From Gammaproteobacteria bacterium (GTDB taxonomy: Bacteria > Pseudomonadota > Gammaproteobacteria > Steroidobacterales > Rariloculaceae): a DNA stretch of 64,000 nucleotides. The notes beneath the pieces are model-generated. The model saw only the letters and a program-made list of their open reading frames with translations, ran no database searches and was not told the DNA's origin. A program made the position numbers and the translations under genes. This document shows positions 3,757 to 39,130 of the stretch, piece after piece (within the stretch, counting starts at the first letter, position 1; the number at the start of each line of letters is the position of its first letter). The stretch lies in assembly GCA_022819855.1 (NCBI GenBank), contig JAJEGN010000014.1, forward strand, positions 188,501-252,500. The letters are read 5' to 3'.

Positions 3757-6246
3757 TCAGTTGAGCCGCGCGGCGCCGCTTTGCGGTGCGGCGGCGGCCC
3801 GCAGTGCGTCCGCTTCGGCCTCGTCGGCCGGCGCCTGCATGCGGAAAGCGTCGCTCGCGACGATTCCGGTCACGATCGCCGACAGGCGGTAATCCTGCTC
3901 GGCGGCGGCGCGCACGACGGCGCGTACCTGTGGCATGTCATGATACTCAAGCTCGCGCCCGAGCGCGTACATCATGAGTTTCTCGGTCAGGGCCTGCACG
4001 AACTGGTCGGACCGGCCGAGCAGGGCCTCGCGAAGTTCGACGGGACCATCCACGGCGATGCCCCCGGGCAGATTCGTGCTCGCATCGATCGGCGCATCGG
4101 CGAGTTCGTCGAAGTCGCGCCACCGGCCGGTCACGGTGAAGTTCTCGAGCGCCAGGCCGTACGGATCGATCACGCCGTGGCAGCCGTCGCAGTTCGGCGC
4201 CTCGCGGTGCTGCTCCAGGCGCACGCGGATCGTCTTCGGCTGCTCGCCCTCGGGTGTCGTTAGGTCCGTTTCGACGTTGGGGGGCGGCGGCGCGGGCGGT
4301 GTGCCCATGAGCTTTTCGAGTACCCAGGCGCCGCGCAGCACGGGAGACGTGCGGTCGCCGTAGGACGTGCGCAGCAGCACGGCCGCCTTGCCGAGCAACC
4401 CGCGGCGGTAGTCGTCCTCGAGCACGACGCGCCGGAATTGTGGGCCGCGCACCGAATCGATGCCGTAATGCTCCGCGAGCCGGTCGTTGAGGAAAGTGTG
4501 ATCGGCCGTAAGCAGCATACGGACGTTACGCTCCTCGAGCAGCACGCTGGCGATGAAAAGTTCAAGCTCGGTCGCGAAGTCCGCGCGCAGTTCGTCGCTG
4601 AAATCCGGGAACAGCCGCTCGTCCGGTTCGACGTCCTCGAGTTCGTCGAGGTTGAGCCAGCGCAGCGCGAAGCCTGTGACGAGCGATTCGGCGCGCGGGT
4701 CGGCGAGCATGCGCCTGACCTGCGTTTCGATGACTCCCGGGTCCCCGAGGGCGCCGGAACTTGCAAGGTCGAGGAGTTCGTCGTCCGGACCCTGGCTCCA
4801 GAGGAAGAACGACAGCCGTGTCGCGAGCTCGAGTTCGCTGAGCGCGTGGAGGCCTTCGCTGTCGTGGTCCTCTGGAGGAGCGATCGCGCGATACAGGAAT
4901 TCGGGGCTTGCGAGGACGGCCGTCAGGAGTTGCTCGACGCCCGCGTCGAACGCGCCCTCCGCGCCGGCGACGGATTCGCGGCCCGCTTCGTAGAACGGCA
5001 TGAGCCGATCGATGTCGTCCTGGTCGACCGGTCGGCGGAACGCGCGCCGGGCGAGATTGGCGGCGATGCGTTCGGCACAGCCCCGTTCCCGTTCCCGAAC
5101 CTCGGGTTCGCAGATGAAGACCTTCTCGCGGCTCGCGGTGCGCGAGACGCCCGTCGAATCGAACGGTCCGACGATCTCGATGCCGCCGATCACGCGCGGC
5201 ACGCGCATCTGGCCGGAGAAACTGAAGCCGCCGTAGGGGGTGAAGCCGTAGATCGTGCCATCGGTCGCCGCTTGCGAGCGTTCGATGAAGGTGACGACGA
5301 TCTCGTGCACGCCGGCCGTGACGGTTACGGGGATATCGGCAAACCGCTGCATGAGGTCCGCCCGGGCCGGTGCGCCGAAGCGGTTGACGAACTCGAGATC
5401 CTCGATACCGCCGAGCCGGGCGCGGAATACCTCGGTTCGATCGACGAGGACGACGAGCGTGTGCTCGGTTTCGAGCGACCGCGGGTAGAGCCCCACGTCG
5501 AGGTCGGTGATGTTGAACCGGTACTCGCCATCGGACGGGAACACGTGCGTGAACATGGTCCCGCCGCGCGTGCCGAGCGGCATGCCGTCGACGTAGCCGT
5601 CCTGATCTCCGCCCGGTGGCGGGAAGTAAACGCTCGCAAGCTTGGGTCGGGTTTCGCCGACGGCAAGCCGTGCCACGGTTCGCGCCGTGCTGACGTATTG
5701 CTCGAGGAAGGCGGGCGAAACGCTCAGTGCAGCCGCGATGTTGCTGAAGCCGTCGACCTCGATGTCGGTGGGCAGGTATTCGGCGGGATCGATCTCGACG
5801 CCGAGCAGGTCCCTGACCGCCGTGGCATATTCGGTGCGGTTCAGCCTCTGAACGGGCACGTGCCCCGCCACCGGCGCCTCGCTGCCCGTATCGATCGTCC
5901 GTTCGAGCCAGCCGACGAAACTGTCGATGCGCGATTCTTCCGGCCGCGCATTGCCGGGCGGCGGCATGAGGCGGCCGCGCAGCTTGCGCACGGCCGCTTC
6001 GAAGATTTCGGCGTGCTCCGGGACGGCGTCCGGCGTCAGCCCTTCGAACACGATGCCGCCCGCAAACTCGGCTTCGTTGTGGCACTCCGTGCAATAGGAC
6101 TCGAGCAGGCTCCAGTGCTGCGCGGGCCGGTCGGCAAACGGCGCAAGCAGATAGACGCCGATCGCGCCCGCAACGACCGCTCCGGACATGCCGACCGTAA
6201 TCAGAACCTTGCGTGTTTGCCTGCTTGCGGGCATCCGATCAAGCAT
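3757..6246 (-). CDS. Membrane-anchored DUF1587/1595/1592/1588/1585 protein with two c-type haem motifs (cassette 1)
   Basis: The chosen start (829 residues) is the ATG at 6246, preceded by GGGG at good spacing. The frame is open further upstream but without a signal-like sequence. Residues about 14-36 form one membrane anchor. A C-T-E-C-H haem-binding motif follows at 52-56 and a second, C-D-G-C-H, at 686-690. Between and after them come the PSD-type domains usually seen together, DUF1587, DUF1595, DUF1592, DUF1588 and DUF1585. This layout is best known from planctomycetes. A periplasmic electron-transfer or oxidoreductase role is inferred from the two haems. It is first in its cassette, directly before the DUF1552 gene. 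Confidence 0.87.
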   Translation of the reverse strand: MLDRMPASRQTRKVLITVGMSGAVVAGAIGVYLLAPFADRPAQHWSLLESYCTECHNEAEFAGGIVFEGLTPDAVPEHAEIFEAAVRKLRGRLMPPPGNARPEESRIDSFVGWLERTIDTGSEAPVAGHVPVQRLNRTEYATAVRDLLGVEIDPAEYLPTDIEVDGFSNIAAALSVSPAFLEQYVSTARTVARLAVGETRPKLASVYFPPPGGDQDGYVDGMPLGTRGGTMFTHVFPSDGEYRFNITDLDVGLYPRSLETEHTLVVLVDRTEVFRARLGGIEDLEFVNRFGAPARADLMQRFADIPVTVTAGVHEIVVTFIERSQAATDGTIYGFTPYGGFSFSGQMRVPRVIGGIEIVGPFDSTGVSRTASREKVFICEPEVRERERGCAERIAANLARRAFRRPVDQDDIDRLMPFYEAGRESVAGAEGAFDAGVEQLLTAVLASPEFLYRAIAPPEDHDSEGLHALSELELATRLSFFLWSQGPDDELLDLASSGALGDPGVIETQVRRMLADPRAESLVTGFALRWLNLDELEDVEPDERLFPDFSDELRADFATELELFIASVLLEERNVRMLLTADHTFLNDRLAEHYGIDSVRGPQFRRVVLEDDYRRGLLGKAAVLLRTSYGDRTSPVLRGAWVLEKLMGTPPAPPPPNVETDLTTPEGEQPKTIRVRLEQHREAPNCDGCHGVIDPYGLALENFTVTGRWRDFDELADAPIDASTNLPGGIAVDGPVELREALLGRSDQFVQALTEKLMMYALGRELEYHDMPQVRAVVRAAAEQDYRLSAIVTGIVASDAFRMQAPADEAEADALRAAAAPQSGAARLN

Positions 6247-36290: not shown

Positions 36291-37274
36291 TTAGTCGAGA
36301 TCGAGCTTGAACAGGCGGATTGCGTTGGAGCGGCCGAACTTGAGGCGCTGCTCGTCGGTGATGACGTCGGTCGAGTCGTACCAATCGGCCGCGTCCTGCA
36401 TGCGCTCGAAGGGATAGTCGGCGCTGAAGTGGATCTTGTCGTGGTCGATGGTGTCGAGCGTGCAGCGGAAAGCCGCATCGTCGAAGTTGCCGCTCGTCGT
36501 CAGGTGGAAGTGCTCGCGGAAATAGTCGCCGAGCGGCCGAGCGCCGCGGTAGCCCCGGCGCGAGAAGGCCATGCGGGCGTCGATCCTCCAGAGGCCGAAC
36601 GGGATGTTCTCGCCGAGGTGACCGAGGCAGATGCGCAGATTCGGATAATCGTCGAACAGGCCCGAGCCGCACAGGCGAAGCGCGTGCGTCGAGGTCTCGA
36701 CGGCGAAGCCCCACGGCGAGCTCATGAGCCAGGGATGGCCTTCGTAGATCGACGCACGCGAGGGAATCTGCATGCGTGGGTGCAGGTAGAACGGTACGTC
36801 AAGTTCCGCGACCGTCGCCCAGAAGCTGCGGTATTCCGGCAGGTCGTAATACTTGACGTTGTCAGGTTCGCCGACCTGCTGAAACCCGTTGATCAAGCAA
36901 CCCTTGAGCCCGAGTTCCCTGACGCAGCGCACAAGTTCCAGGGAGGCGGCGTCGGGGTCGTGCATGGGCAGTGCCGCGAGCGCCGCATAGCGGTCCGGAT
37001 GTTCGGCCACCGCGTCGGCCATGCGGTCGTTGCCCATTCTTGCGACCGCCATGGCCTCGTCCGCGTCGAGGATCTTCTGCACACCGGGCGCGTTGAGCGA
37101 CAGGATCGCAAACTCGATACCGGTCCTGTCCATGTGTTCGAGGCGTTCGTTCCCGAGGTCAAGAATTCGCCGCGCGAAGTCGTCCCATTGGCCCGAATCG
37201 CCGGCGAAGGCGCGCGTTTGCTCGAGCGTTTCCTCGATCGCAAAGTGCTCTTCGAAAGCTATTTTCCCTTGCAT
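36291..37274 (-). CDS. Amidohydrolase-family decarboxylase, gamma-resorcylate decarboxylase-like
   Basis: The 327-residue length matches 2,6-dihydroxybenzoate (gamma-resorcylate) decarboxylases. The N-terminus MQGKIAFEEHFAIEETL supplies E8 and H10 of the metal site. H165 (FYLHPR) and D286 (HFSADYPFE) supply the other expected ligands. Further agreement is seen in ILSLNAPGVQ, YYDLPEYRSFWATV, ALRLCGSGLFDDYPNL and SNAIRLFKLDLD. Known members reversibly decarboxylate hydroxybenzoates in the cytoplasm using Mn or Zn. The precise substrate is not provable. It is first in an apparent two-gene unit with the DUF4159 gene and is divergent from the selenoprotein gene. Confidence 0.8.
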   Translation of the reverse strand: MQGKIAFEEHFAIEETLEQTRAFAGDSGQWDDFARRILDLGNERLEHMDRTGIEFAILSLNAPGVQKILDADEAMAVARMGNDRMADAVAEHPDRYAALAALPMHDPDAASLELVRCVRELGLKGCLINGFQQVGEPDNVKYYDLPEYRSFWATVAELDVPFYLHPRMQIPSRASIYEGHPWLMSSPWGFAVETSTHALRLCGSGLFDDYPNLRICLGHLGENIPFGLWRIDARMAFSRRGYRGARPLGDYFREHFHLTTSGNFDDAAFRCTLDTIDHDKIHFSADYPFERMQDAADWYDSTDVITDEQRLKFGRSNAIRLFKLDLD

Positions 37275-37498
37275 CGTCCCCTTGGTCTCCCCTGATTTCG
37301 CGCCATGATTGCGCGGTTGGCGCGCCGGACGCGGAGACCGCGTTGCAGCGTCGCCGGTCGCAAACGGCGCGTAACATTATCACGCTTGCGGGCCAGCGTC
37401 GCCGCACCTTTGGCACTCGCGGCCGGGTACCGGTTTTCGCTATCCTTCCGCCTCCGCATCACTGGTCGCGCCGCTCGCGATCGAAGGGACAAAGCATC

Positions 37499-39130
37499 AT
37501 GAATCTCAAGCTCGCCGTTCACGACCCGCGCGGCTACCCGCCGAAGGTCACGGGCAAGCGCCTCGCTCCGCGTCTGGAAAGCCTGCACGGCAAGGTCGTC
37601 TACCTCGTCGATTGCCTCTTCGACAATTCCGAGGTGTTCATCACGCAACTCGGCAACTGGCTCGGCGAACGTTTCGCGTCTGCCGACCTCAGGCTCATCA
37701 AGCCGCGCGAGAGCTGGGTCGACGACCCGGACATGCGCGCCCGCATCGAGGCCGACGGCGACGCCGCGATCCTCGGCGTCGGGCTTTGAAGCACCTGCAG
37801 CCCGACGGTCGTCGGGCTTGCGATGGCACTGGAGCAGGGCGGCGTTCCGACCGTTGCCGTGCACACGAACGTCTTCGCGCGGCTCGCGCAATCGGTCGCG
37901 CGCGCCAACGGGATGCCGACGACGCGCCAGGCGTTCGTCCCGCAGCCGGTCGTCGGCAAGTCCGCGGCGGAGCTTCGCGCCTATATCGACGGCCAGGATC
38001 CGGTGAGCGGGAGGCCGTTCGCGCAGGAACTCATCGCCGGACTCACGGACCCGCTCGACGATGCGGATCTGGCGGGACTCTCCTTCGAACGCTCGACGCC
38101 CCGCCTGCTCGAGCCTGACAGCGAAGACAAGCTGCATGCGCTTTTTGCAGAGAACGGCTGGACCGACCATCAGCCGATCGTGCTGCCGACGGAAGAACGC
38201 GTCGCGGCGATGCTCGCGGGCACGAGCCGCGCGGCCGATGAGACCGTCGGACGCCTTCGGCCGACCTACTATCGCGAGTTCTGGGAGTCCACGGTCGAGA
38301 AGGTGGCGGTCAACGCGGTGATGGGCGGGGCTCGGCCGGAGTACCTCCCCGTGATACTCGCGATGGCGGCGAGCGGCCTGTCGGGCCGCTCGAGCTCCAC
38401 GACATCGCAGGCGACCGTGGCGCTCGTCAACGGTCCGATCCGCGACGAGATCGGCATGAACTATGGCATCGGCGCCATGGGCCCCTACAGCCACGCCAAC
38501 GCGACGATCGGCCGCGCCTACGGCCTGCTGTCGCAGAACCTGCAGGGCGGTTCGGTGCCGCACGAGTCCTACATGGGATCGCAGGGCAATTTCCTGAGCT
38601 ACAACGCGACCTTCGCCGAGAACGAAGCGGCGAGTCCCTGGGAACCGTTTCACGTCCAGCACGGCCATGCCCCTGACGAGAGCACGGTGAGCCTGTTCCT
38701 CGGCGGCTGGTACACGATGTTCGGCGGCGGGCCGCGGGAGACCTGGGAGCAGAAGTTCACGCGCTCCCTGCAGGCCTGCGACCCCTACACCGGGCCGATC
38801 ATCGCGCTCGACCCGATCGTCGCGAGAGATTTTGTCAAGCTCGGCTTCGACAGCAAGCAGAAACTCATCGACTGGTGCGTCGAGAATGCCCGCCTGCCGG
38901 CCCGGGAGTTCTGGGACAATCAATGGGTGCAGACGCTGCTGCATCCGCGCGCGGTCGCCGGCATCGAGCCTTACGCGACGATGCTCGCGGCCGACCCGGA
39001 TGAGGAGATCCGCATATTCAGGCCCGAGGACATCCACATTGTCGTGGTCGGCGGCGAGACGGGCGCCGTATGGAAGATGCTCGGCAGCGGACCACGCCGC
39101 ACGACCGTGACCGTGGACGACTGGCGTTAG
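37499..39130 (+). CDS. Putative selenoprotein of the UGSC family, in-frame TGA read as selenocysteine at residue 97
   Basis: The ATG at 37499 has AAGGGAC upstream. The frame runs to TGA 37787-37789 and, in the same frame with no gap, continues to a stop at 39128-39130 (543 residues). The sequence around the TGA reads AAILGVGL-U-STCSPTVVGLA, a U-S-T-C motif after a beta-strand, as in the UGSC (seleno)protein family. Upstream HGKVVYLVDCLFDNSEVF and downstream MALEQGGVPTVAVHTNVFAR match that family's N-terminal domain as I recall it. A hairpin with a GGTC loop starts 10 bases past the TGA. The C-terminal ~350 residues (GSQGNFLSYNATFAENEAAS) have no function I recognise. A cytoplasmic redox role is inferred. 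It would normally be mis-annotated as two ORFs. Confidence 0.85.
37799..37818 (+). promoter_or_regulatory. Bacterial SECIS hairpin inside the selenoprotein gene
   Basis: AGCCCGAC (37799-37806) and GTCGGGCT (37811-37818) pair perfectly around the loop GGTC (37807-37810). The loop lies 18-21 bases after the TGA. In E. coli fdhF, from memory, the SelB-binding loop also contains GGUC at about 19-22 bases after the UGA. Position, loop sequence and stem strength all fit a SelB-dependent recoding element. Confidence 0.82.

Follow-up and report, generated by a model that had tools for sequence, protein, structure and literature searches.

In the 64,000-nucleotide stretch of DNA analysed here (the window), a gene with an apparently broken reading frame is almost certainly intact and encodes a predicted selenium-containing redox enzyme, in which a UGSC domain is fused to a C-terminal partner domain (C-domain) of an unnamed family (Table 1). 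The gene forms one plus-strand frame of 543 residues from the ATG at 37499 to the TAG at 39128–39130, interrupted by a single TGA, and the sequence-only reading, which had joined two open reading frames across this codon and noted U-S-T-C from residue 97 on, was confirmed. The normal coding character that it had ascribed to both sides was also found, with dN/dS values against same-genus orthologues of 0.10–0.11 before the TGA and 0.08–0.09 after it in the same frame; selection on both parts of the frame is purifying. Homologues spanning residues 1–543, with 35–94% identity to the window protein, were recovered from Gamma-, Alpha- and Betaproteobacteria, Chloroflexi, Rokubacteria, Acidobacteria, Poribacteria and Latescibacteria, and AlphaFold modelled the whole 543-residue chain with a mean pLDDT of 90.8 and a pTM of 0.90. 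The window's genome carries three such fusion genes, namely the window copy, which is flanked by a divergent Amidohydro_2 gene and a monomeric isocitrate dehydrogenase gene, and two paralogues. An antisense ORF of 592 codons (37259–39037) was rejected as a gene: several GC-rich homologues lack stops in that frame, a consequence to be expected of GC-rich codon structure, and others have 1 to 13 stops in it.

Table 1. Features of the fused gene and its neighbour, and selenocysteine machinery of the same genome (window positions, except where contig C16 is named).
Feature	Position	Strand	Basis
Fused UGSC/C-domain gene, predicted selenoprotein, 543 codons plus TAG	37499..39130	+	Frame, homologues, dN/dS
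UGSC domain, residues 7–161	37517..37981	+	PF24696; predicted Rossmann-like alpha/beta fold
In-frame TGA, predicted to be read as Sec97, with Cys100 three residues later (U-x-x-C) as putative resolving residue	37787..37789	+	Homologue codons TGA/TGC; sel genes
Predicted bacterial SECIS hairpin, 8-bp stem, GGUC loop at 37807–37810	37799..37818	+	Fold, covariation, synonymous-site constraint at codons 103 and 104
C-terminal partner domain, residues 199–543, unnamed family	38093..39127	+	Separate adjoining gene in other genomes; beside or fused to UGSC
ORF of 435 codons, expected to be annotated as a truncated gene by ordinary gene calling	37823..39130	+	ORF listing
Divergent neighbour, Amidohydro_2 family metal-dependent hydrolase	36291..37274	-	Place kept within the same genus only
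tRNA-Sec	C16:78010-78098		77.3 bits, over curated cut-off
selB	C16:78332-80203		310.8 bits, over curated cut-off
selA	C16:80361-81449		468.4 bits, over curated cut-off
selD	C16:72959-73873		273.6 bits, over curated cut-off

The comparative evidence makes it very nearly certain that the gene specifies a selenoprotein. In a first survey, all 72 fused homologues covering column 97, from several phyla and with a few representing the same contig present in two collections, carried TGA at this position, as did four loci in which the two domains are encoded by separate genes (split forms). Fused homologues with Cys (TGC) instead were found in Neorhizobium galegae (C-S-T-C, ~54% identity), Variovorax boronicumulans (C-G-S-C) and one further locus (L129, C-G-L-C), and split forms with Cys at L094, L098, L171 and L177-L179. 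Thus, the question raised by the sequence-only reading, whether homologues carry Sec or Cys at residue 97, was answered without exception: among homologues that align, the column holds TGA or TGC and nothing else. The same reading had called for a search for selA, selB, selC and selD, and all of this machinery (selA, selB, selD and tRNA-Sec) was located on a single contig of the window's genome. On that contig, SelD forms part of a 788-codon open frame (625–2988 of L121) whose beginning is FAD/NAD-binding; this looks like an Ndh-SelD fusion, a type already reported from ocean metagenomes.

Pseudogenes are typically recognised by a single stop within the frame, and the long ORF left downstream of the TGA would fit a formerly intact Cys or Sec gene truncated by mutation or by an assembly or sequencing error. 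This reading has a vanishingly small probability and is already refuted by the comparative evidence, since two other species of the genus have the identical TGA in their orthologues and it recurs in both paralogues of the window's genome as well as in the 72 fused homologues, while dN/dS stays at ~0.1 after the TGA and the genome holds the full Sec machinery. A sequencing error in particular, which the sequence-only reading had left to be excluded, can be dismissed because the TGA recurs across independent assemblies and in the two paralogues. In one relative, the gammaproteobacterial genome FW602_bin.35, nine UGSC fusion genes were detected (L127 and L131-L138), each with one TGA. At least two of these copies (L131 and L132) start with an apparent signal peptide, and some of the versions in this genome may be exported.

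Inside the frame, directly downstream of the TGA, the bacterial-type SECIS hairpin proposed from sequence alone held up as described, with eight perfect pairs (37799–37806 with 37811–37818), a GGTC loop at +18 to +21 after the TGA and a predicted folding energy of −21.1 kcal/mol. By itself the hairpin is weak evidence, because 14 of 200 shuffled sequences folded as well (z −1.7) and 57 of the 1472 TGAs in the window (3.9%) have a stem of at least eight pairs at a permitted distance; no other TGA among the 1472, however, combines a stem of at least seven pairs with a GGTC loop. The case for a selenoprotein is carried by the comparative evidence, which lies far beyond chance. Stem pair 18–27 links two codons, 102 and 105, at their third bases, which are free at the protein level, and among 21 distinct sequences it occurs as GC (12), CG (6), AU (2) and UA (1). 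Ten cells were changed on both sides against 2.4 expected, a value reached by none of 500 shuffles, and the covariation was lost when the partner position was slid. Furthermore, codons 103 and 104, which form the GGUC loop, are the two lowest-entropy columns of the 197 fourfold-degenerate columns of the whole gene, with codons 105 and 102 ranking sixth and twelfth. Judged from these patterns, the stem is constrained at the RNA level. The Rokubacteria/Chloroflexi branch retains the GGUC loop and the four-pair upper stem but has a different lower stem. A search with Rfam SECIS_1 gave no match to the hairpin or to the controls and is uninformative for bacterial SECIS elements.

These observations also bear on two other readings: insertion of Trp or another amino acid at the UGA, and separate synthesis of the two halves, with the ATG at 37823 as a conceivable downstream start. 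We regard either possibility as very improbable: homologues lacking Sec have Cys at column 97 and never Trp, an internal start at 37823 would split the UGSC domain and lose the UxxC motif, and the covarying GGUC hairpin sits at a fixed distance that is that of a bacterial SECIS.

Assignment to the UGSC family, as put forward in the sequence-only reading, stands at the level of the Pfam domain (PF24696; residues 7–161, 92.7 bits against a cut-off of 25), but not at that of the NCBI equivalog NF041046, to which the window protein scored 67.2 bits, under the cut-off of 125. As two of three split-form proteins exceed the latter cut-off (126.9–127.9 bits) with the third just short of it, the fused branch is best described from these scores as a divergent UGSC variant outside the exact equivalog. 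Both the window protein and the established family (PF24696, NF041046, PMC2398784) have a U-x-x-C motif following a beta strand and Sec with Cys replacements; the window protein differs in having U-S-T-C rather than U-G-S-C and in its fused partner domain of 345 residues. The literal U-G-S-C motif is thus absent from the window protein, as had been noticed, and UGSC or CGSC occurs mainly in split forms; the deviation is nevertheless not an oddity, because most members of the fused branch have U-S-T-C (USTC in 55 of the 72 loci, USSC in 8, UDGC in 4, UDSC in 4 and UPGC in 1). Only U/C97, C100 and P117 are invariant in the UGSC domain.

Global Ocean Sampling data had already yielded a UGSC/Unknown_1 fusion in a 2008 report (PMC2398784, Figure S1A), again a UGSC selenoprotein fused to a conserved domain without known function; the likeness rests on the description, and Unknown_1 may or may not correspond to the C-domain of the window protein. 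In its covered sections, that report makes no mention of obligate pairing in split genes, of a thioredoxin (Trx)/thioredoxin reductase (TrxR) linkage or of kinship with GrdB/PrdB, and the literature naming UGSC, as far as covered, gives no function. As far as checked, four points are new: UGSC has an obligate partner, this partner also occurs as a separate gene, the module is linked to Trx/TrxR, and the kinship of UGSC with GrdB/PrdB has been quantified.

Residues 199–543, described earlier as a large region of no known function, indeed matched nothing in Pfam, NCBIfam or the PDB; beyond that description, they constitute a separate family that always occurs beside or fused to UGSC. Every locus recovered with the UGSC profile has the C-domain and every one recovered with the C-domain profile has UGSC, as a fusion or in the adjacent gene, an arrangement that also holds on named plasmids of Halalkalicoccus, Arthrobacter, Paracoccus and Variovorax; among a few dozen independent loci, neither domain was seen alone. 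Because of this reciprocal pairing and the gene fusion, the two domains very probably form one obligate two-part complex. Two loci (L170 and L177) have two C-domain genes beside a single UGSC gene, which suggests a complex with two kinds of C-domain subunit.

The confident structure model (pLDDT 90.8) gave no credible structural match and no known fold for the C-domain, searches of PDB sequences with whole-protein, N-domain and C-domain profiles returned no relative, and comparison of the UGSC and C-domain profiles indicated no relation (2.1%). In the homologue alignment the C-domain has four invariant polar residues (T222, D223, R339 and E374) and no invariant Cys, and its role can only be guessed because of this lack of an invariant Cys and of a known fold match. 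With more invariant polar residues than the UGSC domain, the C-domain could itself be the real enzyme and UGSC only its regulator or redox switch; we consider this quite unlikely, since the obligate pairing, and the fact that the UGSC part has kept Sec despite its cost, suggest a central role for Sec chemistry.

Family members weakly match the GrdB, GrdF, GrdH and PrdB models at the Sec region. Profile–profile comparison with hhalign aligned UGSC with PrdB/GrdB at a probability of 96.6% when all UGSC sequences were used and at 95.9% over 119 columns with the fused branch alone, with the Sec/Cys columns superimposed, in contrast to values of at most 6.4% for 30 column shuffles and 2.1% for the C-domain control. 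Scores against the curated GrdB/PrdB models lay far under their cut-offs (TIGR04483, 10.9 bits against 300), and the UGSC domain is, on the evidence of the profiles, remotely related to the selenoprotein subunits of glycine and D-proline reductase. It shares with these proteins (TIGR01917, TIGR04483, PF07355) a U/C-x-x-C motif placed between aligned strands and helices; it differs in that its partner is another domain and not a pyruvoyl subunit of the GrdE/PrdA type. The C-domain showed no relation to GrdE (0.1%, compared with one GrdE fragment only), and because of this dissimilarity the pyruvoyl chemistry of GrdB-type enzymes is not carried over. A relative from the same family as the window's genome carries, on the minus strand of L139 (G077:C260), a glycine/betaine-reductase-like operon with GrdE, GrdB with U-G-T-C and a GrdA-like frame.

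The UGSC domain is predicted to alternate strands and helices in a Rossmann-like arrangement with Sec placed after the third strand. Foldseek searches with the whole model and with the UGSC domain returned generic Rossmann-like matches only and did not find a Trx-like fold. The predicted fold is thus Rossmann-like, contrary to the Trx-like fold suggested for UGSC in 2008 (PMC2398784).

At ~19 distinct loci, spread over Alpha-, Beta- and Gammaproteobacteria and Chloroflexi, the module has a neighbouring gene for a TrxR-like flavoprotein with a C-A-S/T-C motif (CxxC), in most cases immediately upstream and on the same strand. In the window's genome such a gene adjoins paralogue 2; none adjoins the window copy. 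An Arthrobacter plasmid has the order trxB-trxA-Cdomain-UGSC in one operon, and the C-domain is preceded by a fused Trx-like domain (C-E-T-C or C-P-T-C; Pfam match under the cut-off, E 0.04) in at least three proteobacterial genomes. At L122, L171 and L172 this fusion is followed by UGSC as the next gene, with Cys in two cases and TGA in one. In its CxxC flavoprotein matching TIGR01292 and its trxA and trxB in one operon, the module resembles a Trx/TrxR system; in contrast, the neighbouring flavoprotein scored 262.6 against an equivalog cut-off of 343.45, and UGSC itself is without a Trx fold. From these gene arrangements, a Trx-type reductant for the UGSC module appears reasonably likely.

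As a whole, we favour as the likely explanation that Sec97 is inserted under SECIS guidance into a single-chain, two-part redox enzyme recycled by a Trx-type system. SelB, guided by the hairpin just after the UGA, would insert selenocysteine at residue 97, giving a single-chain version of the two-part enzyme. Its N-terminal UGSC domain would present the reactive Sec97, with Cys100 as resolving thiol, and Sec97 would act as nucleophile or reductant in a substrate reduction carried out together with the C-domain, the obligate partner that probably binds or activates the substrate. After turnover, a Sec97-Cys100 selenenyl-sulfide would form and be re-reduced by NADPH through the TrxR-like flavoprotein, with or without thioredoxin. 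For the window copy, the flavoprotein beside paralogue 2 would serve in trans. We infer this direction of electron flow, together with a reaction that may be the reductive cleavage of an imported small organic acid.

That the reduction resembles that of GrdB/PrdB is a tentative proposal. Equally tentatively, UGSC and its partner could represent an unrecognised class of selenium-dependent substrate reductases, widespread in environmental bacteria with up to nine paralogues per genome, that would pair GrdB/PrdB-type Sec chemistry with a catalytic partner of a new kind, replacing the pyruvoyl subunit, and would be powered by NADPH via thioredoxin reductase. An alternative is a selenoprotein acting as thiol peroxidase, disulfide reductase or general redox-repair protein, which the Trx/TrxR linkage would fit too and which would agree with the Trx-like nature of many UxxC selenoproteins described in the covered part of PMC2398784. 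We consider this alternative unlikely, given the predicted Rossmann-like rather than Trx-like fold and given that the conserved partner domain, the solute-uptake neighbours and the nine copies in one genome suggest substrate-specific catabolism. Through its constant pairing with one partner domain, its kinship with GrdB/PrdB and its link to thioredoxin reductase, UGSC, an orphan until now, becomes an enzyme that can be tested, with both its complex and its electron donor defined.

Components of TRAP or tripartite tricarboxylate uptake systems, encoded next to several copies, weakly suggest small organic acids as substrates. The genes neighbouring the module vary between genomes, and therefore no substrate is pointed to by them. 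The divergent Amidohydro_2 gene occupies the same place in two other species of the genus, while elsewhere only remote Amidohydro_2 proteins in other arrangements were found; it is a possible functional neighbour and, with its place conserved solely within the genus, does not belong to the module.

UGSC selenoprotein genes are still annotated as fragments. On plasmid pFER4 of Paracoccus ferrooxidans (L180), the UGSC gene at 5360–5929, which lies directly before a C-domain gene and is followed by selB ~3.3 kb further on, is recorded as two small hypothetical proteins split at the TGA.
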